Of a stretch of 20,048 nt of DNA, positions 3,644-20,048 are shown piece after piece. Positions within the stretch are counted from its first letter, which is position 1. Each line of letters begins with the position of its first letter. The position numbers and the translations under genes were made by a program. The notes below the pieces were generated by a model. That model searched no databases, was not told the origin of the DNA, and saw only the letters and a program-made list of their open reading frames with translations. The DNA comes from a virus, in the IMG/VR virus record IMGVR_UViG_3300000362_000006, positions 1 through 20,048 of that record; one strand, written 5' to 3'.

Positions 3644-3654
3644 TGTTCTCCTCC
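3629..3654 (+). other. Strong RNA hairpin across the stop codon of the small acidic gene
   Basis: GGAGGGGAA at 3629-3637 can pair with TTCTCCTCC at 3646-3654, giving nine consecutive pairs (one of them G-U) around an 8-base loop that holds the TAA stop and an ATG. No run of T follows, so it is not a typical intrinsic terminator. It could stabilise the mRNA 3' of the capsid genes, or hide the GGAGG and ATG of the mini-ORF at 3643. Confidence 0.5.
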
Positions 3655-3681
3655 AAGCTTCACTTTAAAAAGGAGGTATAA
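3643..3681 (+). CDS. Possible 12-codon leader-like mini-ORF (MFSSKLHFKKEV)
   Basis: An ATG overlaps the upstream stop (TAATG) and has AAGGAGG at 3627-3633, nine bases away. It opens a 12-codon frame that ends in TAA at 3679-3681, two bases before the next gene's ATG. The mini-ORF runs through that gene's ribosome binding site (AAAAGGAGGT, 3668-3677). It could couple translation of the flanking genes. The frame is short enough to occur by chance, so production of a peptide is uncertain. Confidence 0.25.
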   Translation: MFSSKLHFKKEV

Positions 3682-3683
3682 AG

Positions 3684-4031: not shown

Positions 4032-4042
4032 AGGTGAGTTAA

Positions 4043-4444
4043 ATGGCATGGAGCTACTCTGGTGATCCTTCAAGTTCTCCGCTAGATGCCGTAAGATTTG
4101 AAATAGGTGATACAGATGAAAGTGATGCACTACTACAAAATGAAGAAATTATGTATGTTTTAGATGAAGAAATGGATTCTGTATTAAGAGCTGCTTTAAG
4201 ATGTTGTGAAAATATTATAGCAAGATTTTCACGTGAAGTTAATAAGAAGATAGGACCAACTAGTATAAATGCCAGTGAAGCAGTTCAGCACTATCAGCAA
4301 TTAGCTGATAATATTCGGCGTAGACTTCAAATTAAAGCTATGATATATTGTGGTAGTTTGTCATTATCAGAAGAAGAAAAAGATACAAGAAATAAAGATT
4401 TGAAAAAGCCCATATTTAAGCGAAATATAATGTCGCATCAGTAG
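4043..4444 (+). CDS. Head-tail connector (adaptor) protein
   Basis: This 133-residue, mostly helical protein resembles the adaptor that docks beneath the portal ring (gp6/gp15-like). The N-terminal signature MAWSYSGDPSSSPLDAVRFEIGDTDESD (shown in part: SYSGDPSSSPLDAVRFEIGD), followed by LLQNEEIMYVLDEE, is typical of these proteins. A helix-rich region with RAALRCCENIIARFSRE (about 50-66) and a basic C-terminus follow. The start is ATG 4043 with GAGGTGA at 4031-4037. It is the first of four small genes in the standard neck order: connector, closure, gp10-like, terminator. That order is strong support for the call. Confidence 0.75.
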   Translation: MAWSYSGDPSSSPLDAVRFEIGDTDESDALLQNEEIMYVLDEEMDSVLRAALRCCENIIARFSREVNKKIGPTSINASEAVQHYQQLADNIRRRLQIKAMIYCGSLSLSEEEKDTRNKDLKKPIFKRNIMSHQ

Positions 4445-4452
4445 GAGTAATC

Positions 4453-4776
4453 ATGGACAAGCCGCTAAGAAATATGCTGCATAAAGAAGTTTTATATAAG
4501 GAAAGAATTGGTACAAATGATAGAAATGTGCCTACTTTTGCGTCATCACTTACTTTAATATGCTTTATTTATGGTAACAGAACTATTGCGCAGGATAGTG
4601 AAGGTGAAGAGATTGTCTCTAATATTACTTTAATTTTTGAGCCAAATGAAGTTACTAATAATATAAAAATTAATGATGTGTTTACTATAAGTGAGATTGA
4701 TTGGCCAGTAAGAGTATTACCAATACCTTATTATGATGATAAAGGACAAATTTATTGTGTTGAGGTGAGTTTATAA
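4453..4776 (+). CDS. Head closure (stopper) protein
   Basis: This 107-residue beta-rich protein is placed and patterned like the head closure protein that seals the DNA exit after packaging (SPP1 gp16-like). Visible elements are YKERIGTNDRNVPTF near the N-terminus, a central SLTLICFIYGNRTIAQDSEG strand pair, NDVFTISEIDWPVRVLPIPY, and a closing strand YCVEVSL. The family shares the design of a short beta-barrel with a plug loop. The TAG stop of the connector gene is part of its ribosome binding site (TAGGAG). Its own stop overlaps the next ATG by one base, which suggests translational coupling. The identification rests on size, beta pattern and position. Confidence 0.62.
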   Translation: MDKPLRNMLHKEVLYKERIGTNDRNVPTFASSLTLICFIYGNRTIAQDSEGEEIVSNITLIFEPNEVTNNIKINDVFTISEIDWPVRVLPIPYYDDKGQIYCVEVSL

Positions 4777-5219
4777 TGGCTAATGTTGTAAATATTAAAC
4801 TTAGAAAAAGTGATGAAAGACGCCTTAATGCAAGAATGGAAAAAGCTAATCATTATGTAGGTGTTGGAGCTAGAGAAGGTTTAAGAGAATTTGCAAGAAA
4901 AGTAATAAACCGCAGCCAACCGTTAGTTCCTGTATGGACAGGCGCTATGAAAAGTACCTATTATATTAGACCACCAAGAGTTTCTAAAAATAGAACTACA
5001 ATTGATTTTGGTTATGATGGTACTACACGAACTAATCCAAGAACAGGTATTCCGGTAAGTGAGTATCTTATGAAGCAGCATGAAGATTTGTCATTGAACC
5101 ATCCACGCGGCGGTCAAGCAAAGTTTTTTGAGCAACCTTTAGTAGAACTACAAACAGAGTTTTTAGCAAATATGGGAAATAATATATGGAAAGCACTAGG
5201 AACTTTAAGAAATAGGTAA
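4776..5219 (+). CDS. HK97 gp10-like neck / tail completion protein
   Basis: This 147-residue basic protein matches the HK97 gp10-like family, which acts at the head-tail joint or in tail completion. Family marks are an N-terminal helix with EGLREFARKVINRSQPLVPV (about 34-53), then WTGAMKSTYYI, the VPVWTGA substrate-like segment, and late in the protein HPRGGQAKFFEQPL, the usual Gly-Gly-x-x-Phe-Leu/Phe motif before a final helix. The ATG overlaps the upstream TAA (TAATG), so translation is probably coupled to the closure gene. No membrane segment is present. Confidence 0.78.
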   Translation: MANVVNIKLRKSDERRLNARMEKANHYVGVGAREGLREFARKVINRSQPLVPVWTGAMKSTYYIRPPRVSKNRTTIDFGYDGTTRTNPRTGIPVSEYLMKQHEDLSLNHPRGGQAKFFEQPLVELQTEFLANMGNNIWKALGTLRNR

Positions 5220-5239
5220 TTAAGAAAGGATTTGACTTA

Positions 5240-5620
5240 ATGCTTCTAGATGATTTTAAAACTTATATTATAAATAATAATCTACAGGGTAGTTTTGAGA
5301 CTTGGATTGATACAAGACCAGATCAACCAGACTCTGTTATATGTTTGTTTGAGTATTCGGGAGATTCAACGCAGACTGGTGTAGAAGCATTGAGTAGAAA
5401 TATACAGTTGTTAGTCAGGGCTTTTGATTATGATGAATGCAGAAACAAGATTAATCAGTTGTTTAATGAGTTTGACCAACCTGTTGACAGAGCAATTAGT
5501 TTAACTACTTCAAGATGGACATTAATTGCGGCAAAGCAGCCACCGTTTAAAATGGAAGTTGATGCTTTAAATAGGCAGGTTATGGTTTTTAATATGATTG
5601 TTGTTACACACCGAGACTAA
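5240..5620 (+). CDS. Tail terminator (minor capsid family) protein
   Basis: This 126-residue alpha/beta protein is the probable tail terminator, the ring that caps the finished tube and joins it to the head. The pattern fits the Firmicute phage minor-capsid/terminator family: an N-terminal helix (MLLDDFKTYIINNN), IDTRPDQPDSVICLFEYSGD, a core strand RNIQLLVRAFDYDEC with a following helix NKINQLFNEFD, and a final VMVFNMIVVTHRD strand. It lies between the gp10-like and major tail genes, the standard slot. The start is ATG 5240 with AAAGGA at 5225-5230. Confidence 0.72.
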   Translation: MLLDDFKTYIINNNLQGSFETWIDTRPDQPDSVICLFEYSGDSTQTGVEALSRNIQLLVRAFDYDECRNKINQLFNEFDQPVDRAISLTTSRWTLIAAKQPPFKMEVDALNRQVMVFNMIVVTHRD

Positions 5621-5638
5621 TTTTAAGGAGGTAATAAA

Positions 5639-6217
5639 ATGCCAGGCGTACCCATTGGTTTAAGAGACTTGCATTATGCGTTACTAACTAATGATGAGGT
5701 AGATCCAACTCCTGCAATTAATTATGAGGTACCGGAAAGAATTATTGGGGCTGTTCAAGCTAATATTAACCCCAACCCATCTTCAGAAAGTTTGTTTGCT
5801 GATGATGGTCCTATGGAAACGGCTACTACTTTAGGACAAATAACATTAGAACTAATAACAGCAGACTTACCTTTGGATGTTCAAGCTACTTTGTTAGGTC
5901 ATGATTATGATGCTGCAAATGGTATTCTTATTAGAAAGGCAGAAGATATTGCTCCATGGGTAGCGGTAGGTTTTAGATCATTAAAGTCTAATGGTAACTA
6001 TCGTTATACATGGCTAACTAAAGGTAGATTTAGTGTTCCTGAGCTTAATCATGAAACTAAGACTGATTCAATTAACTTTCAAACACCCACTATAAATGGT
6101 AGTTTTGTTAAAAGAGAAGCTGACGATGTTTATATTTTCCAAGGTGATGAAAATGATACAAACTTTGCACCCGGTACATGGTTTACTGCCGGTGTATTAG
6201 AAACAATCAGATCTTAA
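5639..6217 (+). CDS. Major tail (tube) protein
   Basis: This 192-residue protein is the tube subunit, resembling the phi13-type major tail protein of Gram-positive siphophages. Visible marks are VPIGLRDLHYALLTNDE near the start, AVQANINPNPSSESLFADDG (about 38-57), an ETATTLGQITLELITADLP strand, the LGHDYDAANGILI loop, and the VAVGFRSLKSNGNYRYTWL strand followed by KGRFSVPE. The ribosome binding site AAGGAGGTAA at 5625-5634 is nearly a full match to the anti-Shine-Dalgarno sequence, suiting a very abundant protein. The next genes, chaperone and tape measure, follow in the classic order. No C-terminal Ig-like domain is present, so this is the short form. Confidence 0.85.
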   Translation: MPGVPIGLRDLHYALLTNDEVDPTPAINYEVPERIIGAVQANINPNPSSESLFADDGPMETATTLGQITLELITADLPLDVQATLLGHDYDAANGILIRKAEDIAPWVAVGFRSLKSNGNYRYTWLTKGRFSVPELNHETKTDSINFQTPTINGSFVKREADDVYIFQGDENDTNFAPGTWFTAGVLETIRS

Positions 6218-6240
6218 AATAAAATTAAAGGGTGGGAATA

Positions 6241-6618
6241 ATGAGCGGCATTAAAGATGTAAAAGCGACTGCTGTTAAAATTACATTGGATAAAGAACGT
6301 TCTTTATTGTATGATTTAAATGCTTGGGGCGAGCTTGAAGAACAATTTGGTTCTATTGAAGAGGTTCTAAAAATACATGAAACTAAGAGTGTAAAAAGCT
6401 TTACTACATTATTGTGGGCTGGGTTAATTCATGAAGATGATACTCTTACTCAAAAAGATGTAGGTAAGATGTTAACTTTTAGAACCTTAACAGAAAATAT
6501 GCCACTAATAACTGAAGCAATTGAAAATAGTATGCCCGAACTTACAGAAGAACAAAAGAAAGAGGCAGATAAATTTTTAGAGCAGCAGGAGCAGCAACAA
6601 ACTGAGGGAAACATTTAG
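6241..6618 (+). CDS. Tail assembly chaperone, short product (gpG-like)
   Basis: This 125-residue acidic protein is the unshifted product of the tail assembly chaperone gene. It contains VKITLDKERSLLYDLNAWGE, then EEQFGSIEEVLKI, SFTTLLWAGLIHED and a Gln/Glu-rich C-terminus, the pattern of gpG-type chaperones that bind the tape measure. Translation starts at ATG 6241, with AAGGGTGG just upstream; a GTG nine bases earlier is inside that binding site. Two codons before the TAG stop (6616-6618) is the slippery heptamer GGGAAAC, where some ribosomes shift to the -1 frame to make the long product. It is flanked by the major tail and tape measure genes. Confidence 0.8.
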   Translation: MSGIKDVKATAVKITLDKERSLLYDLNAWGELEEQFGSIEEVLKIHETKSVKSFTTLLWAGLIHEDDTLTQKDVGKMLTFRTLTENMPLITEAIENSMPELTEEQKKEADKFLEQQEQQQTEGNI

Positions 6619-6812
6619 AGTGCACTTCTAATGATATATGGGATTGGGGTGAAATGTATTATATAGGACGAACACTTTTAGGTAAATCAGAAGATAATTT
6701 CTGGAGGTGCACTCCTCGCCACATTTATAGACAACTGGCAGTTCACTCAAAGTTTAATAGTACAGACGAAGACCCAAATAGGCAAGAGAAATATATAGAT
6801 CAAATATTGTAG
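6241..6812 (+). CDS. Tail assembly chaperone, -1 frameshift fusion (gpGT-like)
   Basis: This joins the gpG-like frame to a second frame through a -1 shift at 6606-6612, giving about 190 residues: 124 from the first frame, then 66 beginning HLECTSNDIWDWGEMYYIGR and ending YIDQIL before TAG 6810-6812. The -1 frame has a TGA at 6603-6605, so it opens only just before the slip site and has no good start of its own; it is reached by shifting. The added part has the usual T-domain look: WDW..MYYIGRTLLG, then DNFWRCTPRHIYRQL. As in lambda gpG/gpGT, the minor fusion should bind both the tape measure and the tube protein. This accounts for the whole stretch between the gpG stop and the tape measure gene. 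The -1 frame and heptamer are seen directly; the shift itself is inferred. Confidence 0.85.
6606..6612 (+). promoter_or_regulatory. -1 ribosomal frameshift site G GGA AAC
   Basis: In the gpG frame the codons read gaG GGA AAC, so the heptamer fits X XXY YYZ exactly (GGG, AAA, C). Slipping back one base re-pairs the tRNAs with GGG and AAA. The lambda site in the same gene is GGGAAAG. The zero-frame stop lies one codon beyond, and the -1 frame is closed upstream by TGA 6603-6605, so the shift must occur within about 12 bases here. Confidence 0.85.
6618..6714 (+). other. Possible long-range stem downstream of the frameshift site
   Basis: GAGTGCAC at 6618-6625, starting five bases after the slippery heptamer, is exactly complementary to GTGCACTC at 6707-6714. 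The 8-bp stem would begin where stimulatory structures usually start, closing an 81-base loop. A competing local hairpin exists at 6703-6715 (GGAG...CTCC). This is a candidate only. Confidence 0.3.
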
Positions 6813-6828
6813 TTGAGGAGGTTTATCT

Positions 6829-9800
6829 ATGGCTGATTTACATGCCGGTCGACTAAGAGCTGATGCTGAACTAAATACTGAAAGATTTAGACAAGGCATC
6901 TCAAGAATACGTGGCTCAATGGCTCATTTAGGCGCCGGTTTTCAAAAAGCCTTTGGTAGAGATCCTCAACGTGCTTTGCAGGAGACGGAGAAAACAGCAA
7001 AAAGAGTTACTTGGACAATACGTGGTTATATTAAAGATACTAGTAGAGTTATTACTGGTATCTTAATTTCACAGGTGTTTTATCATACTCTACGGCAGGT
7101 TAGAATGATGACTGCTGCTGTGTGGGAAAATGCTAAAGCAGTTGAACAAACTACTATTGCCTATGAACTCCTTTTGGGTAATCAAAAAGAAGCTAGTGAA
7201 TATATGTATGCACTTATTGATTTTGTAGCTAAAACACCTTTTGAATGGGAGGGTGTAGATCAAGCTGCAAAAAGACTATTAGCAGTAGGTTTTACAGCAG
7301 AACAAACTATTCCTATTCTAAGAACATTAGCTGACACAACGGCTCTTATGGGAGGTGACCCTGTTCAATTAGAAAGATTGAATAGGGCTATTTATCAAAT
7401 AGCTGCAAAAGGTAGATTACAAGGTATTGAAGTAAGGCAGTTAATGGAAGCTGGAATACCCGCTGCAGAAATATTAACAGAAAAATTAGGTTTAACAACG
7501 GATGAATTAGTTAATATATCACAGGCACAAATACCTGCTGGCGTAGCTATAGCCGCACTTTTAGAAGGAATGCATGAACGTTTTGAAGGTGCTGCTGAAT
7601 TAATTGAGAGAACTGTTGCTGGCATGACAACTACTATTCGTGATAATTTTTTAATGCTCAGTAGGATTTTAACTGAAGGCTTATTTGAACGTTACCGAGC
7701 ATTTTTAGAATCTTTTTTGGATAGAATTGTATATTTAAACGATGTAGTTATGAAATATGGTGTGCATGGATTTTTTCAAGCTATTATTCCAGAGCGCATG
7801 TTTGAACCTATAATGCATCTTATACAAGCAGTTCAATTATTCGTAAAAGAAATAGGAAAATTGTATAATGCTTTTAGACCTTTAATAACTGTACTTAGTG
7901 ACGCTTTTATTTATGCATTATCTGCTGTTTCTACAACTATGCTAGTAGTATTACGTGGTTTAAATGGGCTTATACAAGGTTTGCAAGCTGCTTATTATTG
8001 GGCAGTAACTAACATACCGGGTTTTAGTCAATTAGCGTATGTTTTAAGACAGCTTTTGGTAGCTTTTTTAGCCGCTCAAGCTATGTATCTCGTATATTCT
8101 GCTATGCGCCTTATGGTTATTGCAGGTCCATTAGCTTTTATTTTTGCACATTTAAAAACAGCCATATCGGCTTTAACTAGAGCAGTTATGGCTTTAAATA
8201 TAGCTTTATTATTTAATGTTAAAGTACTAATAATTGCGCTAGTTGGGCTTGGTATAGTATTAGCTGCTAATAGAATATGGAACTTAAAAGCTAGTTTTGA
8301 TGGTTTATGGAATTCTATAAAAGCCGGTTTAGGTTTTACAAAACCTGTAACAAGAGATCTTACTAATTTAGGTGAAAGTAGCGACAAATTTAATCAATCA
8401 TTAGAAGATGTATTAGACAGTATTCGTGGTATTGGTTCTGAAGCAAGTGATGAAATGGACAAAGCGGGCGATGGAGCAGGTAAAGCAGCAGATAAAGCTG
8501 AAAAAGGTTTTAAAAAGTTCTTAGCTTCTTTTGATGAAGTTTATAATGTACCAGATGCTCTTGATAGTGCTGCTGATTCTTTGTCTGGTATAGGTGATAC
8601 ACTAGATACAGATTTATTTGAAGAGTTACCGTTAGATGCAGCTTTAGCTGGAATAGGGGACGGTATAGATCCTGGTGTTTATTTTGATGATCTTTTTGAT
8701 GGATTATTTCCTGAAACTGATGTAAAAGCTTGGTGGCAAAAGCTTTGGGATGGTTTAAAAGGTATATATCAAGATTTTATAGTCGGTACTTTAAACGATA
8801 TATGGTCATTTTTTGATGCTGTATCTGCTACTCTTAGAACTCTTGCACAAGCATTTTTTGATTTTACTTTTACTACTATGAAGAGAATATGGGATTTATA
8901 TAATGATATAAGAGCAATTTATCATGAATTTGTTGAGCTAACTTGGGACAGTATTATAGATACATTAAAAACAACTGCTAAGCATATTTCTTGGTGGGCT
9001 ACTATTACTACTTTGCACTTTGAAGATTGGTGGGAAACTATAAAAGGCTTATGGGAAGAATTTAAAGAATTAACTATAGATGCTTTTATAGATATATTTA
9101 CAATAACAGTAGAAAGAATACGTAATTGGGCTACAAATACTTATAGTATATTTAGTGGGTGGTGGGAAGGCACAAAAGAAATATGGGAAGAATTTAAAAA
9201 GTTAATTATGGGTAATATAATAGAGTCTCTTGTAGTAACTTGGGAGGCTATAAAAGAATGGGTTAGCAATACAATGGAGTCTTATGAAAAATGGGGAGAA
9301 GGTTTATTAGAAATTTTTGAAGATATTTGGGATGAGCCTATTTTGGTTCTTCTATGGCGTTTCATAAAACTTACGTATGAGACTATAAAAGGGTGGGTTT
9401 CTGATACTCTTGATTTATATGAAGAATGGAAAGATGATATAGCTGCAATATGGGATGGATGGTGGGAAGAAGCTGTAACATTGTTTGAGGAATTTATTAC
9501 TAATACAAAAGAAGCAATAGAAGAATGGATAAAAGTAACATTAAAAGAATGGGAAGGTTGGAAAGAAGATGTTTGGGAAGTAATTGAAGAATGGTATATT
9601 GAGGCTAAAAGACTATTTGATACAGCAGTAGAAGAAACTAAAAAAACAATAGAAAGCTGGATAGGACATACTGAAAGATTATATGAATCATGGAAAACAG
9701 AAGTTATTGAAATATGGGAAGAATGGTATGAAGGTGTTAAAGATTTAGTAGAAGAAGCTATTAAGACCACAAAGAAGCATATAGAAGAATGGATAATAGA

Positions 9801-10488
9801 TATGGAAGAAAAGTTTGAATATTGGAAAGGTGCTATAATTGATATTTGGAAAAAATGGTATGAAGAGACTGAAAGTTGGTTTATAAAGACGTTTAAAGAA
9901 AACTATGATAGGTTAGTTACTTGGGTTAAAGATATGTATAAGAAATTTGTTGAATGGTACGATGATACAATAGAACTTATAGTAGAATGGGCTGAAGGTA
10001 TTGAGTCTACCTTTGAAGAACTGTGGGGAGATTTGTGGACTGCTGCTAAAGGCTTTTGGTCAGATTTATCTTCGTTAATAAAGCGCACTATAAATGATAT
10101 TATTGATTGGGTTAATATTTTAATCAGAGCTTGGAATAAATTAGGTTTTGAAACACCTGATTGGGCACGGCGTGCAGGTTTTGCAGATAGATATGGTACA
10201 ATAAATGTTAGAGAAATACCTAAACTTGAGACAGGCGGCATAGTTAGGAAGCACTCAGTAGTTGAAGTTGGAGAAGGTAATAAGCCAGAAGCGGTTGTTC
10301 CATTAACCGGTCCGCATGGTCAAAAATTTGCTAATATGATTGCAGAGCGTATCGGTGATATAATAGGAGACGATAGAATGCCTCCATTATACGTTGGTAC
10401 TTTAATAACTGATGAGCGCGGTTTAGTAGAATTAGAAAGAAGGATGAAAGTTGTTAGAGCAGATGAAGCCATTAGGGGGAGTGTATAA
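6829..10488 (+). CDS. Tail tape measure protein
   Basis: This 1219-residue protein sets tail length and is ejected ahead of the DNA. Residues about 95-290 match the tape measure N-terminal domain (VEQTTIAYELLLGNQKEASE, then KTPFEWEGVDQAAKRLLAVG, then ALMGGDPVQLERLNRAIYQI and LQGIEVRQLMEAGIPAAEIL). Residues about 405-445 and 455-484 are long hydrophobic stretches that could span the host membrane. Residues 676-1072 are nine 44-residue tryptophan repeats, listed separately. Near the end, LETGGIVRKHSVVEVGEGNK followed by PEAVVPL is the common C-terminal motif. At roughly 0.15 nm per residue the tail would be near 180 nm long (inference). No lysozyme or peptidase domain was seen. The ribosome binding site is GAGGAGGT at 6815-6822, and the stop overlaps the next ATG by one base. 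Confidence 0.92.
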   Translation: MADLHAGRLRADAELNTERFRQGISRIRGSMAHLGAGFQKAFGRDPQRALQETEKTAKRVTWTIRGYIKDTSRVITGILISQVFYHTLRQVRMMTAAVWENAKAVEQTTIAYELLLGNQKEASEYMYALIDFVAKTPFEWEGVDQAAKRLLAVGFTAEQTIPILRTLADTTALMGGDPVQLERLNRAIYQIAAKGRLQGIEVRQLMEAGIPAAEILTEKLGLTTDELVNISQAQIPAGVAIAALLEGMHERFEGAAELIERTVAGMTTTIRDNFLMLSRILTEGLFERYRAFLESFLDRIVYLNDVVMKYGVHGFFQAIIPERMFEPIMHLIQAVQLFVKEIGKLYNAFRPLITVLSDAFIYALSAVSTTMLVVLRGLNGLIQGLQAAYYWAVTNIPGFSQLAYVLRQLLVAFLAAQAMYLVYSAMRLMVIAGPLAFIFAHLKTAISALTRAVMALNIALLFNVKVLIIALVGLGIVLAANRIWNLKASFDGLWNSIKAGLGFTKPVTRDLTNLGESSDKFNQSLEDVLDSIRGIGSEASDEMDKAGDGAGKAADKAEKGFKKFLASFDEVYNVPDALDSAADSLSGIGDTLDTDLFEELPLDAALAGIGDGIDPGVYFDDLFDGLFPETDVKAWWQKLWDGLKGIYQDFIVGTLNDIWSFFDAVSATLRTLAQAFFDFTFTTMKRIWDLYNDIRAIYHEFVELTWDSIIDTLKTTAKHISWWATITTLHFEDWWETIKGLWEEFKELTIDAFIDIFTITVERIRNWATNTYSIFSGWWEGTKEIWEEFKKLIMGNIIESLVVTWEAIKEWVSNTMESYEKWGEGLLEIFEDIWDEPILVLLWRFIKLTYETIKGWVSDTLDLYEEWKDDIAAIWDGWWEEAVTLFEEFITNTKEAIEEWIKVTLKEWEGWKEDVWEVIEEWYIEAKRLFDTAVEETKKTIESWIGHTERLYESWKTEVIEIWEEWYEGVKDLVEEAIKTTKKHIEEWIIDMEEKFEYWKGAIIDIWKKWYEETESWFIKTFKENYDRLVTWVKDMYKKFVEWYDDTIELIVEWAEGIESTFEELWGDLWTAAKGFWSDLSSLIKRTINDIIDWVNILIRAWNKLGFETPDWARRAGFADRYGTINVREIPKLETGGIVRKHSVVEVGEGNKPEAVVPLTGPHGQKFANMIAERIGDIIGDDRMPPLYVGTLITDERGLVELERRMKVVRADEAIRGSV
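8854..10044 (+). repeat. Nine 44-residue (132-base) tryptophan repeats in the tape measure gene
   Basis: Units begin at 8854, 8986, 9118, 9250, 9385, 9517, 9649, 9781 and 9913. All are 132 bases except the fourth, which is 135. In most units Trp falls at positions 4 and 15, with another Trp or aromatic near 26, for example IEEWI...W...EEWYE, so each unit is four 11-residue turns. The DNA copies are diverged, so this is an old protein-level repeat rather than a recent tandem duplication. Such 11-residue aromatic spacing is known from tape measure proteins, where it fits a helix packed in the tube. Confidence 0.85.
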
Positions 10489-10859
10489 TGAGTGATGGTA
10501 TGAATATAAGACTCCGTCTAGCAGGTGGTACATGGATTAAAATAAAAGTACCTAATGGTTTTAATATTCAAAGGTATAATCTTACAAAATCTGGTAGAAT
10601 TGCTAACGGCGATATGACAATGGATTTTATAGCTAAAAAAAGAAAATTCTTATTTAGTTATGAATCAATATCTAAAAAGGACTTTAATGATATTCTTAAT
10701 ATAGTTGACACAACTACAATGTTTTTTGAAATACAGTATGTTGAAAATGATGTAACTAAGACGGCAACTGTTTATGCTGGACACATACCATCAGAAAGAT
10801 TTAGAACTGATATGGGTTGGTATTGGAAGGATGTCAACTTTGATTTGATAGAGGTGTAG
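10488..10859 (+). CDS. Distal tail (Dit)-like tail tip protein
   Basis: This 123-residue protein follows the tape measure gene directly, the usual place of the distal tail protein that starts the tip and carries the hub. It is mostly beta: RLRLAGGTWIKIKVPNGFNI, then SGRIANGDMTMDFIAKKRKF (the charged KKRKFLFSYESIS strand is typical of small Dit-like tail proteins), a short helix KDFNDILNIVD, and closing strands TATVYAGHIPSERF and WKDVNFDLIEV. It is shorter than canonical Dit proteins of about 200-250 residues and has only the N-terminal core. The start is ATG 10488 (overlapping TAATG) with AGGGGGAG at 10474-10481. Assignment is by position and pattern; a tail-tube-like adaptor is the alternative. 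Confidence 0.55.
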   Translation: MSDGMNIRLRLAGGTWIKIKVPNGFNIQRYNLTKSGRIANGDMTMDFIAKKRKFLFSYESISKKDFNDILNIVDTTTMFFEIQYVENDVTKTATVYAGHIPSERFRTDMGWYWKDVNFDLIEV

Positions 10860-10861
10860 AT

Positions 10862-12232
10862 TTGATAAGCACTAGTGCAGGTTTCAAAACTAATATAGAT
10901 AAGTTAGATAGAGACATAGGGGCTAAAGTTGAGATATTTTTTGATGGAGATAACAATAGTCCTACTGTTTTTTATAAAGATGATCAAATTGTTTCTATAG
11001 CAATCTTAGAAGAATTAAGAGCTGATACAATGAGTCCATTAGGCCACGTATCTGCTAATGAGCTTAGCTTAGTTTTAAATAACTCTAATAGAATATTTTC
11101 ACCAACTAATACTGAAAGCCCTTACTATAATAAGTTGTTACCAAACGTATTAATAAAGGCTTTTATAGGGGTGCATGTAAGCGGTAGCTATGAGTATATT
11201 TCATTAGGTGAGTTTAGAACTGGAGATTGGCGCTCACCTTCTTCACAAATACGTGCTTCAGTTAAGTGTCCTGATATATTAGCTTCAATAGGACAAAAAG
11301 ATATGCCTATGGTTCCTGTTATTGAGAATACAAATATAAAAGAAATGTTTGAAATATTATTTCAATCTTTTGGTTTAACTTCTGATGATTATATAATTGA
11401 TGAAGATCTTGTTCAGCCAATTAGATTTGGTTGGTTTAATCGTGATAAAGTAATTAATGAACTACAGAGGTTAGCTAGTTCTGGACACTGCTTTGTGTTC
11501 TTAAATAGGCAGGGCAAGATCAGAGTTAAAAATATATTTAGTGTAGGTGAGTCTGTTGCTACTTTGACAGATAATAATCAAATAGTGAATGTAGACTCTC
11601 CTCAAAAATATTCTGATACTTTTTCAAAAATATTTTTAAAATATCCTATGCCTACTTTAAATTTAGAATCTGAGCAAATAGTATCATTAGCAGATGTAAA
11701 AAGCGAAGTACCCGATACTACTTTAACTGGTATAACTTTTTCAAATGCTCCTATTTGTTTGGTTAATCAAGTTGCATTAACTAAGGGTAGATATTCAGAT
11801 ATTGAGTATATCAAACATGGGGCATTAGACTGCACTATAAAGTTAATAAATGATAATTTACTTGAGGAAGTTAGGCTAACTATATTTGGACAAAAAATGA
11901 ATAAGAATGAAGCTATATCTATGGCAACCAATGCTGCTTTAGTAGATTTAATTGGTGAAAAAGAACTGAGCTTAACAGTAGACTTAATACAGCAGCAAGA
12001 AGAAGCTAATAACTACACCAGTATACTTTTAAACTTTGTAGGTGATCCTTTTGCGTATTATTCAGCTGATATACGTGGTAATCCTTCATTAGAAGTTGGC
12101 GATGTTATTACTCTTATTGATACTGCTGATAAAGTTCCTTCAGCTGAGGTAGTAATAGTTCGACAAACAATGTCCTTTGCAGGTGGTTTAGATGGTAAAT
12201 TAATTGCAATAAAGAAAGAGTGTTTGGAGTGA
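10862..12232 (+). CDS. Tail hub / tail-associated baseplate protein
   Basis: This 456-residue protein fits the tail hub (Tal N-terminal, gp27-like) found between Dit and the fibres. Residues about 20-130 form the first beta domain (GAKVEIFFDGD, SPLGHVSANELSLVLNNSNR, LPNVLIKAFIGVHVSGSYEY, then SLGEFRTGDWR). A helical region follows (TNIKEMFEILFQSFGL, then FNRDKVINELQRLASSGHCF). The rest is beta-rich and ends with the hub-type phrase GNPSLEVGDVITLIDTAD, in which a path or strand is followed by VRQTMSFAGGLDGKLIAIKK. No peptidase or lysozyme domain is visible, so host wall digestion is probably carried elsewhere. The start is TTG 10862, with GAGGTG at 10851-10856 overlapping the upstream stop. 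Confidence 0.72.
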   Translation: MISTSAGFKTNIDKLDRDIGAKVEIFFDGDNNSPTVFYKDDQIVSIAILEELRADTMSPLGHVSANELSLVLNNSNRIFSPTNTESPYYNKLLPNVLIKAFIGVHVSGSYEYISLGEFRTGDWRSPSSQIRASVKCPDILASIGQKDMPMVPVIENTNIKEMFEILFQSFGLTSDDYIIDEDLVQPIRFGWFNRDKVINELQRLASSGHCFVFLNRQGKIRVKNIFSVGESVATLTDNNQIVNVDSPQKYSDTFSKIFLKYPMPTLNLESEQIVSLADVKSEVPDTTLTGITFSNAPICLVNQVALTKGRYSDIEYIKHGALDCTIKLINDNLLEEVRLTIFGQKMNKNEAISMATNAALVDLIGEKELSLTVDLIQQQEEANNYTSILLNFVGDPFAYYSADIRGNPSLEVGDVITLIDTADKVPSAEVVIVRQTMSFAGGLDGKLIAIKKECLE

Positions 12233-12238
12233 TAATAT

Positions 12239-15200
12239 TTGCCAGATAAAATCAGAATAAGAGAAAAAACAGAAAAGTGGATTCGCTGGGAGATATATAA
12301 TCTTCAGTATGATGCTGAGTTATATGATCAGTTTCGTATTCTTATTCTTGAAGGTGAAGATAAGATATACCGCGGAGAATATACTTGGCACTCTAAAAAT
12401 CCTGCTCCAAATACTTGGTTTGAAAGAGATGATCTTAAGCCTGGTGTTTTATATGAAGCGCATGGTTTTGCTACATGGGATGGTATAGAATATCGCTGCG
12501 GAATCATTCGTGGGTATACTAAGTCGACGGTTGACTTTAAACATAAACCTATGTGGTTTGCAGAAGATAATATTTTAAAAAATCCATATGCTGAAGAAGG
12601 ACTAGTAAATTGGACTAGCAGTGGTGTTTCTGTTCAAGAAGGTGGTATACGGAGAAGAGACGAAGAAGCACCTTATAATCATTTTAGACTTGGAAGTACT
12701 GCTTATATGAAGCAAACTTTTAAGAGAGAAGATTTTACTGATTCTAAGTGGGCAATCGAAAACCTTCTTGCACGCTTCTTTTTTAAATTTGATACATCGC
12801 CAGAGCCTTTAGAAACTCAAGTAAGAGCCTATGCTAAAATTACTTATAAATATCAAGAGTTATTAACAGAAGAGGGAACAGGAACTACTTCAGATCATAA
12901 AACAAGAATTACTAATATTGGAGAAACTTCAATAACTTGGGAAATTTTTGATTTGCAGTATGAAGCACACTTATATGATAAGTTTCGTTTTGTGATTGTC
13001 AATGAAGATTCAGGCGAGTACTTAGGGTCATGGAATGTATTACCACCAGATCCTCCCGGTGAAGGTGAAGAGCCTGTATATGAAGTTGATCTTACTCATG
13101 CAACACTTGAAACTGATACTAGATATACTTGTTATACTTATGGAACATGGAATGGTATAGAGTATTCAGCAGGTAGTGCCACTGGAACAACTGGTGGCGA
13201 AGATGAGGGTATGGGTCTTCCAGAAGTTGATAAAGATATTATTATACTACCAATTAATCCTTCTTTCTTTAACACTAGAGAAACTGAAGAAGACTGGATT
13301 AAACTTGAGCAAGTATGTTATGTAGATAATACTAAAGAATTGATTGAAGCAGAGTTTGAGATCCGCACAGTCGGAATAACTGGATATTTAAGAGTAGATG
13401 GTTTTGCTTTGTATGAAGGATTATTTGAAAGTGAAGAAGATGCTTTAAGAAGAGGCGCTCTTAGTCAAACAGGTGTAGGTATAAATGCTCATCTAGCATA
13501 TGATGAATGGGGTATAAACCCTGATTACATCAAACGGTTCCCCAACAAAGTAGTAGGTTCTGGTTACGAGTGGTATGACCCGGAAACAAAGAAGCCATTA
13601 TTTTGGGATACAGATGGTATTGTTACGGAAGATGCAAATTGGGAAGGCACTGTTGCATTAGAATTGGCACCGGGACAGACCGCAAAACAGTCCACGCTAG
13701 CAGAGATCGGCAGACCGCATGTTCCAGCAGGGGCTGACCCGGAGTGGTGGGATAATGTTCGCACAAGAATATCTTTTAAGCACAAAGGTGCCCGAGTTAA
13801 AGCTTGGGTAGAGCGGTACGATACCGGCGAAAAACTTTATATTTACGATAACTCAGAACAAGGCAATGTTAATAAATATGGTCAAGATTCAGGAATCATA
13901 CGTGAAGGTTATGAGTTGGAATGGGGACCAATACCTAATTGGGCACTATTTACTGAAGTAGATAGAATGAATGAAAAAGTTCCAGATATGAGTTATCTTA
14001 CTAAAGGATATGCCAGTTTTTATTTTATACCGGAGCAGGGGATAGGCCGTGTTAAGGTTTGCTTTCAGAACGCCGAAGTAGAAGAGGAGTTAAGCGGAGT
14101 AAGGCTGCCCTTCTGGGAGGTAGAGGAACCGCCAGAGGAATGGGGAAGCACCGATTTCAGGCCGCTTAAAACTATACAGGGCTACAATGATTATTCCAAT
14201 TCCAGGGTGTCTAATTGGGTTCCGACAGGGGACGGCAGGTTTATCTGTTCCTGGCCGCAGGACGGGGCTATTGTTCTCGGCTACACATCAAGCGAGGAAA
14301 AGTTTTTAAACACAGGTTACCCCGCAGAGGAAACAATAACTATAACTGACTTGGATTTTGGGACACTGGCCGACTGTTCCATGTTCAAGCTGGAGGACGG
14401 CAAACTTCTACTCTTCGTCAGGCACCAGATACCAGATCCCGGTGAAGAATACGGTACTATGTCCGAGCGGCGGGATGTAGCAGGTTCCCGCATTGACTGT
14501 TATATCTCTTCTTCCGGCAACGGCTACGCAATGGCGGGAGAGGACAAGGTAAGCGACTTTGTGCATCACACTCTGGTCAGGAAGAACACTCCCGGCTGGT
14601 CTGATTCTCAATATCCGTTCCTCGAAGTTAGTTGGGACAAAGGGATGCTCAATGAGCCATTTAGAACAGACAGCGGCGCGCTTTTGCTTTCTACCTGTAT
14701 GGCTGTTGGCTTCAAGGAGAGGGGGTTGGTATTTCGTAGCACCAACGACGGGGAGACATGGACTCTGACATTTCACTACGGGCTAACCCTGCTAAACGCG
14801 GGTTATTTTGGCTTCTGCAAGCCGTTCCAGATCGGTAACGGTGATATATTTGTGATGATGATGCAGGGGTCTGCTAACAAACACATGTATCGATCTACAA
14901 CTGATGGGCAGGCATTTACTGAGACACTTGGCGAGTGGGGCCAGCGGTTTGGGTATTCGATGACTGATATGCAGGAAACGCCCCGCTTTGCATCTTTTGG
15001 CTGTTCTTTCTGGTACGACAAAGAGCAGGACAGGCTGTATATGCACGCGGCGGGAACCTTTACCGGGTGTGGGATTTTTATCTTAGACGAACCGAACAAC
15101 AACAGAATTATGTCTTTCGCTTATCATAGGTGGAAACATTTCCAAGACGGGGACGAAGAATTAAACGAGCGCAGCGATTGGGAACAGCGGTTCATGTACA

Positions 15201-16390
15201 CGCACACTAACACGGGCGTATATTCCCGCCTCTACCGGACACCGAAAGACAGGCTGGCGGTGCAGTGGAGCGATTTAAGCACCAGAACCGTAATCATCGG
15301 CTTTGGAGGGCCAGCAGGCAACGCCTGGCTTGACGCTGTTCAAATAGAACCGGACTTCACCTTCAAGCACCCTTCCTTTTACACGAAGGGGCCGAGAAGT
15401 TTACCACCTATAGAGGTTATAGGTATGCCCGGCATGGGAGAGCCCGGCACAGACCCAGATACCGGGGAACCGATATTAAAGCCGAACAAACACGCCGAAA
15501 CGCATTGTATTGATGGTGGGGATCATGTCAGCCCGGAGTGTATCGGGGCTATCTCCAAAGAAGAATTTTTAGCCATGTTGGATAATTGCAGCTACCGGCA
15601 GGCTTATTTTAATTCCGACCAATGGGTTGTAGAACATTACATGAACACCGAGCCTGTAATTACTATTTGGAAAGGGCCGATAGGTGAGCACGGGTTTGGG
15701 ACACAGCCCTTTGGAACGAGTATCTTCGGCGGGGGGATTAACCCTGCTGATTTAGTAGAAGCTACGCATGAGCCGACTATTGAGGTACTGGACAAGGATA
15801 GGTTTGTGGTGAACTGGACATCACAGGAAAGCGGTATTGTGGTGGCATTGTCCCCGGAAATGGCAGCAGGATTGTCAAGTGAGCTTACTGCCTCCTGGGA
15901 ACAGATAACCGGCAAGCCCTCCACCTTCACCCCTTCTGAACACGGCAACGAGGCACACGACCCGAACTTTGCGAATGAAGGCCACGACCACGACCTTGCC
16001 TATGCCGATATTGACCATGACCACGATGACGATTACCTCAACAAAGCCAACACAGCCGAATACAACCCTTCCGGCGACTATCACCCGGCTACGAAGAAAT
16101 ACGTTGACGATAATGCAGGTGGCGGGGCGTTTACGGAGCTTACTGATACCCCTGCAAACTATACCGGACAGGCGGGGAAGGTTGCCACGGTTAACGTTGG
16201 GGAGGACGGCTTAGAGTTTGCAGACGGCCCGGCGGCGGCAAACGGTTTGCCCGCAGGCGGCACGGCAGGGCAGATGTTAGCTAAGATTGATGCTGCGGAT
16301 TATAACGCGGAGTGGGTGGAACCTCCGAGTGGCGGCGGTGGAGATACGGATGTTGGGCTTGTCAAAAAACTTGTAGCCTTGGGGATGTGA
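12239..16390 (+). CDS. Large multidomain tail fibre / receptor-binding protein
   Basis: This 1383-residue protein should bind the host surface. In order: an FN3-like module (about 13-97); a carbohydrate-binding-like jelly roll (111-208 and 333-394) split by a second FN3-like module (221-318); a second jelly-roll region beginning SGYEWYDPETKKPLFWDTDG (441-460); a sialidase-like beta-propeller (about 640-1005) with one good Asp-box, STNDGETW (834-841), and a degenerate one at 886-893; a jelly-roll strand GNAWLDAVQIEPDF (1027-1040); a His-rich stretch with HDH twice (1249-1251, 1260-1262); and fibre tail motifs FTELTDTPANYTGQAGKV and LPAGGTAGQMLAK. No catalytic sialidase set could be assigned, so glycan binding is safer than cleavage. 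The start is TTG 12239, nine bases after GGAGTGAT. Base composition changes sharply near 14030, inside the gene. Confidence 0.78.
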   Translation: MPDKIRIREKTEKWIRWEIYNLQYDAELYDQFRILILEGEDKIYRGEYTWHSKNPAPNTWFERDDLKPGVLYEAHGFATWDGIEYRCGIIRGYTKSTVDFKHKPMWFAEDNILKNPYAEEGLVNWTSSGVSVQEGGIRRRDEEAPYNHFRLGSTAYMKQTFKREDFTDSKWAIENLLARFFFKFDTSPEPLETQVRAYAKITYKYQELLTEEGTGTTSDHKTRITNIGETSITWEIFDLQYEAHLYDKFRFVIVNEDSGEYLGSWNVLPPDPPGEGEEPVYEVDLTHATLETDTRYTCYTYGTWNGIEYSAGSATGTTGGEDEGMGLPEVDKDIIILPINPSFFNTRETEEDWIKLEQVCYVDNTKELIEAEFEIRTVGITGYLRVDGFALYEGLFESEEDALRRGALSQTGVGINAHLAYDEWGINPDYIKRFPNKVVGSGYEWYDPETKKPLFWDTDGIVTEDANWEGTVALELAPGQTAKQSTLAEIGRPHVPAGADPEWWDNVRTRISFKHKGARVKAWVERYDTGEKLYIYDNSEQGNVNKYGQDSGIIREGYELEWGPIPNWALFTEVDRMNEKVPDMSYLTKGYASFYFIPEQGIGRVKVCFQNAEVEEELSGVRLPFWEVEEPPEEWGSTDFRPLKTIQGYNDYSNSRVSNWVPTGDGRFICSWPQDGAIVLGYTSSEEKFLNTGYPAEETITITDLDFGTLADCSMFKLEDGKLLLFVRHQIPDPGEEYGTMSERRDVAGSRIDCYISSSGNGYAMAGEDKVSDFVHHTLVRKNTPGWSDSQYPFLEVSWDKGMLNEPFRTDSGALLLSTCMAVGFKERGLVFRSTNDGETWTLTFHYGLTLLNAGYFGFCKPFQIGNGDIFVMMMQGSANKHMYRSTTDGQAFTETLGEWGQRFGYSMTDMQETPRFASFGCSFWYDKEQDRLYMHAAGTFTGCGIFILDEPNNNRIMSFAYHRWKHFQDGDEELNERSDWEQRFMYTHTNTGVYSRLYRTPKDRLAVQWSDLSTRTVIIGFGGPAGNAWLDAVQIEPDFTFKHPSFYTKGPRSLPPIEVIGMPGMGEPGTDPDTGEPILKPNKHAETHCIDGGDHVSPECIGAISKEEFLAMLDNCSYRQAYFNSDQWVVEHYMNTEPVITIWKGPIGEHGFGTQPFGTSIFGGGINPADLVEATHEPTIEVLDKDRFVVNWTSQESGIVVALSPEMAAGLSSELTASWEQITGKPSTFTPSEHGNEAHDPNFANEGHDHDLAYADIDHDHDDDYLNKANTAEYNPSGDYHPATKKYVDDNAGGGAFTELTDTPANYTGQAGKVATVNVGEDGLEFADGPAAANGLPAGGTAGQMLAKIDAADYNAEWVEPPSGGGGDTDVGLVKKLVALGM
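12278..12526 (+). repeat. FN3-like module, copy 1 of the fibre protein
   Basis: Codons 14-96 carry WEIYNLQYDAELYDQFRILI early and HGFATWDGIEY late. The same marks recur in codons 231-314 as WEIFDLQYEAHLYDKFRFVI and YGTWNGIEY. The two copies are clearly related in protein and still alike in DNA, so they come from duplication within the gene or from repeated acquisition of the same module. Confidence 0.7.
12929..13180 (+). repeat. FN3-like module, copy 2, inserted in a jelly-roll domain
   Basis: Codons 231-314 repeat the copy 1 pattern. The sequence before (RAYAKITYKYQELL) and after (DIIILPINPSFFN, then EDWIKLEQVCYVDNT and LRVDGFALYEG) reads as the two halves of one carbohydrate-binding-like jelly roll. 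The module therefore seems to sit in a loop of that domain. Confidence 0.6.
14031..14031. other. Base-composition junction inside the fibre gene
   Basis: Counting by hand, 13931-14030 has 29 G+C in 100 bases and 14031-14130 has 56 in 100. Sequence to the left is generally about one-third G+C and sequence to the right generally about half or more. An earlier G+C-rich patch, about 13531-13830 (59 in 100 at 13651-13750), is followed by an AT-rich piece (34 in 100 at 13831-13930). The reading frame is continuous throughout. Confidence 0.75.
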
Positions 16391-16394
16391 TGAA

Positions 16395-16718
16395 TTGAAC
16401 GAGAAACTTTTATTTCACGGCATACCTGACCATACAGCAGAGGCCGACCTGACCGCCGGCCCCGGTTCCGGCAAGGTGTGGATTGTGACGGCTCTTTGGA
16501 TCGCCAACACAAACGCAGCGGCCAAGACACTGACGCTGAAGCATTACATTGACGCTGGCAACACCCGGACGATTGTGCCGGGGGCGACTTTTGCGGCAAA
16601 GCAGACGGAGATCATCGGGCCGCTTGTGATCGAGAACGGACATAAGGTTGTAGCCGAGCAGGAAACAGAAAACGCCATTGAGATTACCGCTTACGGCTTG
16701 GAAGGGGACACCACCTAA
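16395..16718 (+). CDS. Small beta-sandwich tail-fibre-associated virion protein
   Basis: This 107-residue protein belongs by pattern to a common group of small phage beta-sandwich proteins encoded beside tail fibres: GSGKVWIVTALWIANTNAAA, KTLTLKHYIDAGNTRTI, then TEIIGPLVIENGHKVVAEQE and a closing IEITAYGLEG strand. The layout of a short lead (LLFHGIPDH), an IANTNAAAKTL turn and a GPLVIENGHKV strand is typical. Its exact role is unknown to me; it may cap or link fibres. The start is TTG 16395, because an ATG at 16390 runs into a stop after two codons and no other early start exists. The ribosome binding site is weak (GGGGAT upstream), so translation may be coupled to the fibre gene, whose stop lies four bases away. 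Confidence 0.6.
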   Translation: MNEKLLFHGIPDHTAEADLTAGPGSGKVWIVTALWIANTNAAAKTLTLKHYIDAGNTRTIVPGATFAAKQTEIIGPLVIENGHKVVAEQETENAIEITAYGLEGDTT

Positions 16719-17564
16719 ATGAGAAAACAATTTGTGCAGAAGATGCCGATGGTGAGGCAGCGGGTGGGGGTAGAAGTGGTTGTAGCAATATTTACCTCTG
16801 ACAGCACATTCCAGGTTCCCGGCAACGTCACTGCTGTTGATATACTCTTAGTCGGCGGTGGTGGTGGAGGTGGGCTTGAGTTTGGTGGCGGTGGCGGTGC
16901 AGGAGGATTATTGTGGGAAGCCGGACATCCTGTCGTGCCTTTGTCTAACATTGCGGTAACAGTCGGGCAAGGGGGGGCAGGCGCGACCTCTCGTGGAGAT
17001 GGTGGCGATGGAACAAGTAGCATCTTTGACACCCTTGAAGCCATAGGCGGCGGTGGCGGTGGAGGTTTTCAGAGACAAGGAAGAGACGGCGGCTCCGGTG
17101 GCGGCGGCGGCGGGCGAAGCACGGCTTCTGGAGGGTCCGCAATAGATACCGATCCTCCCAACGCAGTATATCAAGGATATGATGGCGGCGCTGCCGGTGG
17201 CGACACCACTGTTGACCCTGGCGGTGGCGGCGGCGGTGCTGGCGAAGCGGGCGGGAATGGAAACGACCCCAATGGTGGCGCAGGAGGCGCAGGGTTAGAC
17301 TTTGGTGCAGTATTCGGCACCACAGTAGGCGACAATGGTTGGTTTGCTGGCGGCGGCGGTGGTGGGACAGACGCCAGAGAAGCCACATCTATTGGCGGTG
17401 TTGGCGGTGCTGGCGGCGGCGGGGATGGCTCAGGGGCAAATAGGTCCCACGACGGGGAATCCGGCATGCCCAATACTGGCGGCGGCGGTGGTGGTGGCAG
17501 CATATCCGGTGACCAAGGCGGCAACGGCGGTTCCGGCATCGTCATTGTGCGCTATTACGTATAG
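16719..17564 (+). CDS. Glycine-rich tail adhesin (polyglycine domain protein)
   Basis: This 281-residue protein is nearly half glycine. After a basic start (MRKQFVQKMPMVRQRVG) comes TFQVPGNVTAVDILLVGGGG, then about eight glycine runs (mostly GGC/GGT codons) separated by short loops with Asp, Asn and Ser, and the end GGNGGSGIVIVRYYV. This is the layout of the phage glycine-rich domain family (VPaGVtsvdvlLVGGGGGG ... GGSGiViiRY). In related receptor adhesins such as T-even-like gp38, polyglycine type II helices pack side by side and the loops contact the receptor. A host-binding tip role is inferred. The ATG follows the previous stop directly. The family is mostly known in fibre tip and virion genes. 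Confidence 0.72.
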   Translation: MRKQFVQKMPMVRQRVGVEVVVAIFTSDSTFQVPGNVTAVDILLVGGGGGGGLEFGGGGGAGGLLWEAGHPVVPLSNIAVTVGQGGAGATSRGDGGDGTSSIFDTLEAIGGGGGGGFQRQGRDGGSGGGGGGRSTASGGSAIDTDPPNAVYQGYDGGAAGGDTTVDPGGGGGGAGEAGGNGNDPNGGAGGAGLDFGAVFGTTVGDNGWFAGGGGGGTDAREATSIGGVGGAGGGGDGSGANRSHDGESGMPNTGGGGGGGSISGDQGGNGGSGIVIVRYYV

Positions 17565-17581
17565 AAAGGAGTTGATACCTT

Positions 17582-18787
17582 GTGGCGATAACCTACACAG
17601 ACAATTTAACCCTGCCCATTGTCCCTGCGGATAATCAGGACTGGGCAAGCGACTACAACACCATGATTGAGAAGCTGGACAGAAACCCCGGCATCCGCAT
17701 TGTTGCCGATGAAGCGGCGATGGTGGCGCTGACCACGTTCACGGGGCGCATGTGCTGGCGCACGGACTTGGGGCAGTACTGGTACTATGACGGCACACAA
17801 TGGGCAGTTCTGCCGGGGCAGGTGGAAGGGGAAATGCCCGCATTTATGCCGATGAAGGGCACGGAGCAGGAGGTTACAGCAGAGGTTGCGGCAGAAGGAT
17901 CGCAGGACGGCACGATAGATTTTGACTATTACCCCGGTGTGGGTGAAGAAGTCCAGCTTTACATGCTTAAAGTTACCCTTGACGCTGACGAGGTTCCGGT
18001 GGAAAACGAAGAAGTAATTATGGAGGAAGAAACTGCCAAGCGCCTTGAACATAAACACGACCGGAGTTTGGACGAAACAGGCGACGAGGTGGATAACCTT
18101 GTAGTCAAGGCAGATGGCGAAACAGCCGAGATACAGACGCTATTCTTGGGCGGGGCGACAGGTGGAACCTATGATTTAGGTATAACGGGAAACATGGCGA
18201 CCCTCAACCATGATGACACGGCGGCAACTATCCAGACCGCACTCGAAGGCATCTTCGGGGCAGGCAATGTTACGGTAGTGCCGGACACGGATTTCACGAT
18301 TACCTTTGCTGTGAGTGTGGGGGACTCCAACCTGATAGCCGACTTTACCGGGCTTACCGGGGCGACTGATCCTGCCCTGACTGTTACGCAAGCCTACTCC
18401 GCGCATACGGTTTATGTGCGTGATACCGACTATGCTGTAACGGTTGACAGTTCCGGTTATACGAATATTGCCCGCATTGCGCTGGGTAGCATAACCGACC
18501 CGGAGACGGTGCTTGTAGATTACGATTACCAACCCGGTGTATCAGGTTTTAAGTTTAAACTTTACAGCGAAGCGGCACGGACAAACCTAATGTACGAACT
18601 GGACACGGAACAAGACCCGGACTGGCCGGGGGGCATAGCTATCCGCGATCCTAACTACGGGTATCTGCCGATCTGCTATTTTGTTGACGAGGACGAGAAC
18701 GGGCAGTTTTATTACCGGGTGGAGAATTTGGACGAGGCGCTTGCTTCACGGTTCAAGGTTGACATTAAATACAAGGCGCTAACATAG
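17582..18787 (+). CDS. Beta-rich tail fibre / baseplate protein with an inserted repeat-type domain
   Basis: This 401-residue protein starts at GTG 17582, ten bases after GAAAGGAG (17564-17571). Residues 1-75 contain LTLPIVPADNQDWASDYNTM and MCWRTDLGQYWYYDGTQWAV, the latter a short motif common in phage fibres (a displayed W-Y-Y-DGTQW strand pair). Residues about 182-271 match a domain found repeated in many phage and surface proteins: LGGATGGTYDLGITGNMATL, HDDTAATIQTALEGIFGAGN, VTVVPDTDFTITFAV, then DFTGLTGATDPALTVTQ. The flanks DNLVVKADGE and HTVYVRDTDYAVTVDSSGYT followed by GSITDPETVLVDYDY look like one beta domain interrupted by it. The C-terminal 80 residues are of unknown fold. Base composition is G+C-rich like its neighbours. 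Confidence 0.6.
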   Translation: MAITYTDNLTLPIVPADNQDWASDYNTMIEKLDRNPGIRIVADEAAMVALTTFTGRMCWRTDLGQYWYYDGTQWAVLPGQVEGEMPAFMPMKGTEQEVTAEVAAEGSQDGTIDFDYYPGVGEEVQLYMLKVTLDADEVPVENEEVIMEEETAKRLEHKHDRSLDETGDEVDNLVVKADGETAEIQTLFLGGATGGTYDLGITGNMATLNHDDTAATIQTALEGIFGAGNVTVVPDTDFTITFAVSVGDSNLIADFTGLTGATDPALTVTQAYSAHTVYVRDTDYAVTVDSSGYTNIARIALGSITDPETVLVDYDYQPGVSGFKFKLYSEAARTNLMYELDTEQDPDWPGGIAIRDPNYGYLPICYFVDEDENGQFYYRVENLDEALASRFKVDIKYKALT

Positions 18788-18799
18788 GGGGGTGAGGTA

Positions 18800-19939
18800 A
18801 TGGCAAGGATATTTATGGATGGGTTCGAGACGGGACGGCCGGACGGCCAAACACCCACTTTTGGATATTACCAAGGTAGTATTTGGCAGTACGATATGAC
18901 CGCTTATTTAAGCCGGTCTATTCTACGCGTGGTGGACTCCGGGGCCAAGACCGGCACTTATGCACTTTACGCCCAGCAGAACAGCGGCATCTCTTATAGG
19001 CATACATTATTCAAAAACCTGGGATCTAATATTGTAGAGCATTATGGCAGAGTTGAGTGTGATGTAAACTTGCAAGAGGATGGCGTTGTGCCGATTGTTT
19101 GCTTCAGGGACGATACGTATGCCACTGCCGGTGATACTAATAGCATCGTTGCCACCATAAGGGTGTCAAGGACGGCAGACCTTGTTAATTTGCACCTGTA
19201 TGTGGGGGCGGTAGAAGTAGCGTCTTCGTCAGAGGCGTTTATCAATGATGGGGGCTACGTAAGGATAGAATGGCGTTTACTTGTAGATGACACTAATGGA
19301 GTTTTCGAGGTAAAGGTAAACGGTAATTCAGTAATATCGTTCCAAGGTGACACAGATCCCACAATTGAGGGACATATCAGGTTTTTATGCCTGGGGAAGC
19401 CTTATGCTGGAAGCACTAATTATATTGCACGTTTTGACGACGTTGCCATAAACGACACCACCGGCACGGTGAACAACTCATGGGTAGGCAGGGGCTATAT
19501 CTACCTTGCCAAGCCTAAAGGGATAGGCAACTACAGCCAGTGGACACCGAGCAACGAAACTTACGACAACTGGGAAATGGTCAATACTGTCCCCGACGAT
19601 GGCGACACAACCTACGTGGAATCGGAAACTCCGGGCCACAGGGACAGCTACCAGATGGAAACGATAGAGGACGCTTTAGGGGTGGCGATAGGCGACGGCG
19701 TTATCAAAGCCGTCCAGCACGTATTTAAAGGACGCTACGAGGACGCTCACGCAGCCGTAGAGCCGTTTGTAAGGATAGGCGCTACAGACTATGACCTTGA
19801 CCCTGCTACGGACATGCAGAACGCTTATTATAGGTACTGGGATCGGGTGTTAAACGTGAACCCTGCTACAAGCGCAGCGTGGACGCAGGAAGCATTTGAC
19901 GGTATGGAAGCAGGGGTCAAGTTTGATGATTCCGAGTAG
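18800..19939 (+). CDS. Concanavalin/LamG-like jelly-roll tail protein
   Basis: This 379-residue protein opens with ARIFMDGFETG, a phrase I know from phage virion proteins with a jelly-roll (concanavalin-like) fold. Residues 1-210 follow that fold: YALYAQQNSGISYRH, EHYGRVECDVNLQEDG, VRIEWRLLVDDTNGVFEVKV, then YIARFDDVAINDTTG, the last being the usual FDDV.INDTTG strand. Residues about 220-379 form a second region (NNSWVGRGYIYLAKPKG, then DDGDTTYVESETPGHRDSYQ) that appears with this fold in other phages. Binding a host or capsid surface is a reasonable guess. The start is ATG 18800, with GGGGGGTGAGGT directly upstream. Nothing suggests an enzyme. Confidence 0.65.
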   Translation: MARIFMDGFETGRPDGQTPTFGYYQGSIWQYDMTAYLSRSILRVVDSGAKTGTYALYAQQNSGISYRHTLFKNLGSNIVEHYGRVECDVNLQEDGVVPIVCFRDDTYATAGDTNSIVATIRVSRTADLVNLHLYVGAVEVASSSEAFINDGGYVRIEWRLLVDDTNGVFEVKVNGNSVISFQGDTDPTIEGHIRFLCLGKPYAGSTNYIARFDDVAINDTTGTVNNSWVGRGYIYLAKPKGIGNYSQWTPSNETYDNWEMVNTVPDDGDTTYVESETPGHRDSYQMETIEDALGVAIGDGVIKAVQHVFKGRYEDAHAAVEPFVRIGATDYDLDPATDMQNAYYRYWDRVLNVNPATSAAWTQEAFDGMEAGVKFDDSE

Positions 19940-19951
19940 GGGGGATAAGCT

Positions 19952-20048
19952 GTGAGCGAAGAGGAAAAAGTCTATACGACCTCCGTAGCCGAGCAGGTGG
20001 ACATAGACCAACCATCGGAGCATCTACCCGGCAGGATTACCTCCGTCG
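19952..20048 (+). CDS. 5' end of a downstream gene, unidentified (partial)
   Basis: A GTG at 19952, with a strong TAGGGGGGAT ribosome binding site starting just after the previous stop, opens a frame that runs off the right edge. The first 32 codons read SEEEKVYTTSVAEQVDIDQP, then EHLPGRITSV. I recognise no family in this short piece. It continues the G+C-rich adhesion block, so a further tail fibre or baseplate protein is likely. Confidence 0.6.
   Translation, partial: MSEEEKVYTTSVAEQVDIDQPSEHLPGRITSV

Follow-up and report, generated by a model that had tools for sequence, protein, structure and literature searches.

Phages are known to exchange receptor-binding modules (PMC10579305, PMC8432352). 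Alteromonas phages A5 and V22, which are otherwise unrelated, have a host-recognition module in common, and this has been ascribed to horizontal transfer and recombination (PMC10579305). Tail spikes of the Ackermannviridae have exchangeable receptor-binding modules, and in them the N-terminal part is conserved and the C-terminal receptor-binding part is variable (PMC8432352). Like A5 and V22, the locus described here would carry a putative host-recognition module gained by horizontal exchange, and, like the Ackermannviridae tail spikes, its central gene is proposed to combine an N-terminal tail part with a variable C-terminal receptor-binding part, here without relatives showing that the N-terminus is conserved.

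Organization of the contig

The window, that is, the whole stretch of DNA analysed, is the complete IMG/VR virus record IMGVR_UViG_3300000362_000006, a metagenomic contig of 20,048 bases that may be a genome fragment. According to the ORF list and PHROG matches, it holds a siphovirus-like structural region, which from left to right comprises the capsid, the tape measure, two tail-tip genes, one gene encoding 1,383 aa and, after it, four or more further genes. The window was also searched for tRNA genes as possible integration-site marks, and none were found. The main features are:

132-12,232, plus strand: AT-rich head-tail module of 15 genes, 35% G+C (PHROG matches; synteny with IMG/VR contigs)
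2,454-3,431, plus strand: major capsid protein, phrog_1005 (PHROG match)
6,829-10,488, plus strand: tape measure protein, phrog_167 and others (PHROG match)
10,488-10,859 and 10,862-12,232, plus strand: two tail-tip genes (PHROG matches)
12,239-16,390, plus strand: putative tail-tip / receptor-binding gene of mosaic make-up, encoding 1383 aa from a TTG start codon (ORF listing; role assigned from position and motifs)
12,239-13,525, plus strand: AT-rich first part of this gene (codon use like the upstream genes, z -0.1)
13,526-13,831, plus strand: upstream GC-rich patch with intermediate codon use (z +5.9 from the AT type, -3.9 from the GC type)
13,832-14,029, plus strand: AT-rich stretch from the patch to the join (z -0.9 from the AT type, -7.5 from the GC type)
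14,006-14,039, plus strand: interval in which the compositional join is placed, with the best break at 14,029/14,030 (codons TTT ATA / CCG GAG) (segmentation and codon tests)
14,030-15,421, plus strand: GC-rich middle part with Asp-box-like motifs (motif search; putative sialidase-like beta-propeller)
15,422-16,390, plus strand: GC-rich tail-fibre-like C-terminus with an HDHD / TKKYVDDN motif at 16,091 (phrog_33012, 18179, 11660)
16,395-19,939, plus strand: GC-rich genes after the join, encoding a 107-aa protein, a Gly-rich tail protein (PF21722), a 401-aa protein and a 379-aa protein (phrog_2448) (PHROG and profile matches)

The compositional join lies within one putative tail-tip gene

The G+C content is 34.7% in positions 1-13,530 and 53.2% in 14,031-20,048; it stays at about 35% up to 14,029 and at about 53% beyond, and in the 100 bases on either side of 14,030/14,031 it rises from 29.0% to 55.0%. 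When the entire window was segmented recursively by likelihood, a sole break resulted, at 14,029/14,030 (2LR 579), and it falls within the single ORF 12,239-16,390.

Codon usage was considered using synonymous codon tables trained on 15 upstream and four downstream genes, with the gene at 12,239-16,390 left out; this test is independent of amino-acid content. Within the 1383-aa gene, the codon log-likelihood ratio was -190 for 12,239-14,029 (the upstream type) and +321 for 14,030-16,387 (the downstream type). The two-state Viterbi path through all coding sequence of the window switched only once, at 14,030, which was also the best codon break, the positions within 3 nats of it spanning 14,006-14,039. 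Arginine codons of this gene illustrate the shift: before 13,526, AGA accounts for 14 of 23, and after 14,030 the 28 codons include 11 AGG, six CGG, four CGC and four AGA. Dinucleotide distances (x1000) were 45 between two upstream stretches and 111-145 from these to the GC-rich stretches; the short first part of the 1383-aa gene was 78-79 from the upstream genes, nearly as much as its distance of 92 to the part after the join.

The preliminary description had placed a G+C jump across 14,030/14,031 inside an open gene with the frame kept, had noted that everything downstream remains G+C-rich and that codon choice shifts, arginine included, and had proposed to follow G+C and codon usage along the sequence. 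All of these observations hold, and both measures place the step at about 14,030. There is a compositional join in the putative tail-tip / receptor-binding gene, and the reading frame is open across it.

In the region 12,000-16,500 no long direct or inverted repeats were found around the join, only short imperfect ones. An invertible or repeat-bounded tail-fibre cassette was rejected because long flanking repeats are absent from this region.

The first part of the gene and the upstream GC-rich patch

In the AT-rich first part of the gene there are two repeat copies of about 95 aa, at aa 4-94 (12,248-12,520) and aa 221-318 (12,899-13,192), which are 37% identical and, judged from their sequence, may adopt an FnIII-like fold. 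The second copy is perhaps inserted in a beta-rich spacer. Searches of phages, plasmids, viral contigs and 545 sampled genomes gave no match to the N-terminal half of the gene.

A second, smaller GC-rich patch at about 13,531-13,830, followed by an AT-rich stretch, had been described previously. It is indeed present (49.7% G+C), yet its codon use is intermediate: the segment 13,526-13,831 lies 5.9 sd above the codon use of the upstream genes and 3.9 sd below that of the downstream ones. The 66 codons after it (13,832-14,029) are plainly of the AT-rich upstream type (z -0.9).

There are two ways to read the patch. One is an older import that has since ameliorated, perhaps left over from a previous exchange; the other is a local departure. 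The second reading, local variation inside the AT-rich part with no second recombination event, has a probability only slightly short of even. The intermediate codon use, 3.9 sd from the GC-rich type, agrees with it, as does the fact that at a looser Viterbi setting the patch breaks into short alternating runs. What speaks against local variation is the synonymous score of the patch, +7.6, which exceeds all 774 of the overlapping 102-codon reference windows of AT-rich genes (mean -38, sd 7.5, maximum -18.6). The in-frame compositional join is well supported; the initial suggestion of at least two recombination events is weaker, because the patch has intermediate codon use.

The GC-rich side

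Three Asp-box-like motifs, at 14,510, 14,738 (STNDGETW) and 14,894, were found in the middle part of the gene (one near-canonical, two relaxed) and in no other protein of the window. From the motifs, 14,030-15,421 may form a sialidase-like beta-propeller; no profile matched this part. AF2 models built without an alignment had confidence too low for interpretation, both for the Asp-box part (pLDDT 36.9) and for the join region (pLDDT 38.7).

In the C-terminal half, the fibre motif is the only matching part, and a similar stretch is present in 117 viral contigs; the profile matches to tail-fibre and tail families (phrog_11660, 19961, 988) are partial and weak. Among eight genomes carrying the capsid family and 545 genomes of two classes, the only match to the 1383-aa gene was a 32-residue one in the fibre motif. 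The preliminary description had proposed to compare the best-hit lineages of the two halves; the first half gave no hit, and the second gave hits through its fibre motif only. The genes after the join are on the same strand as the upstream ones and of kinds expected at that position. Distant relatives of the 379-aa phrog_2448 protein occur mainly in Caulobacter and Brevundimonas phages. The Gly-rich tail protein (PF21722, phrog_2295; 16,719-17,564) reaches a local G+C of up to 64%.

The Asp-box motifs, the tail-fibre motif, the Gly-rich tail protein and the phrog_2448 protein would all fit a host-contact module, which is what the GC-rich part resembles. The earlier suggestion that host-recognition parts had been swapped agrees with the position and the motifs, the function itself being putative.

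Relatives of the upstream module

We compared the window with 37 loci containing capsid relatives (up to 72% identity) and 32 loci containing tail-tip relatives. In these loci the genes follow the order seen in the window as far as 12,232. Their G+C content before the tail tip varies from phage to phage (32-52%). The capsid family as a whole spans phages of about 32 to 67% G+C, with two capsid relatives, L147 and L035, at 66-67%. The best genome relatives of the upstream module are mostly Bacillota MAGs; thus, its host is likely to belong to Bacillota.

The comparison of G+C around the tail tip covered contigs that extend beyond the last tail gene in common with the window; L002-L006, which are nearest by capsid, stop before that place. 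In the contigs covered, the largest 3-kb G+C change around the tail tip was 0.087, as compared to 0.174 in the window. In two of these contigs the change reaches 10 points elsewhere, and among 215 loci of at least 8 kb, of several kinds, the largest change was 16 points. None of the relatives reaching past the last shared tail gene encodes the 1383-aa gene or the genes after it, and HMMER and hhalign detected no homology between the 1383-aa gene and the same-place gene in six relatives. Hence the G+C step is not a trait of the upstream-module family, as such relatives shift there by no more than 9 points over 3 kb and have other genes. One relative, L055 (G009), passes from about 0.36 to about 0.5 G+C some 7.4 kb past the tail-tip gene; the rise coincides with a gene boundary and follows its receptor-binding genes.

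Proposed module exchange and its alternatives

The explanation that we favour, with somewhat better than even confidence, is an in-frame exchange of a host-recognition module by recombination inside the tail-tip gene. An AT-rich siphovirus would have gained a GC-rich module, consisting of the C-terminal 786 residues and at least four genes after them, by recombining with a phage whose base composition differed from its own; the crossover would have occurred inside the tail-tip gene with the reading frame kept. The AT-rich N-terminus would presumably still attach to the tail after the exchange, and the host would be contacted by the newly gained part with its Asp-box and fibre-like features, with a presumed effect on host range.

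Several observations are consistent with exchange. The G+C and synonymous codon steps occur at the same codon and are single and sharp, the frame is open across the join with an intermediate patch close by, and relatives hold unrelated genes in place of the 1383-aa gene and those following. On the other side, an artificial join would also keep the frame by chance in one case in three, and the join was seen in no other contig. The searches yielded no DNA match in phages, no close relatives of either half among viral contigs, and neither a donor nor a recipient in the databases searched. A degenerate search with the peptide across the join gave seven matches, all of them unrelated proteins or random ORFs, and they were rejected as chance matches. 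The absence of a second contig with the join is weak evidence, since near-identical records may be missing from the searched sets.

The main alternative is a chimeric assembly, the metagenome assembler having fused an AT-rich and a GC-rich phage inside their tail-tip genes. We regard this as a real but clearly lesser possibility. The sequence is a viral contig from a metagenome, judged without reads, the join has no second occurrence, and among 255 loci not one carries proteins from the two sides together, all of which would fit a chimera. However, the frame and the strand are preserved, and the GC-rich side begins within a tail-tip gene and runs on into tail genes, as it would in one genome; moreover, no long repeat is present at the join, and one false join would leave the nearby second compositional patch unexplained. 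That the host-binding end is GC-rich intrinsically with no exchange, for example through selection on protein composition or expression, is very improbable, as Gly-rich proteins may account for a local rise such as that at 16,951-17,550 but not for a switch in synonymous codons, and same-position genes of relatives hold their own genome's G+C.

A fuller version of module exchange, in which the whole host-recognition module was recently exchanged in nature between phages of hosts differing greatly in base composition and the upstream patch is a remnant of an earlier exchange, is rather unlikely. A real join here would be a natural one, placed with precision, between phage lineages of different G+C, and it would probably be recent, because it is little ameliorated. 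It would then show a site at which a tail-tip gene can take on a foreign end and be useful for timing such exchanges, without introducing a new principle: if biological, this is an ordinary, well-known kind of phage mosaicism.

Comparison with known systems

Unlike A5 and V22, where both partners are known, the join here is intragenic and accompanied by a G+C step, and neither donor nor recipient has been found. In the comparison with the Ackermannviridae tail spikes, no conserved recombination motif was found at the join. The phrog_1005 siphovirus head-tail modules (IMG/VR L002-L038; Bacillota MAG loci L145, L147 and L148) resemble the window in the order of their genes as far as the tail tip, the capsids being at most 72% identical; unlike the window, those that extend beyond the last tail gene in common carry another gene there, with no G+C step.
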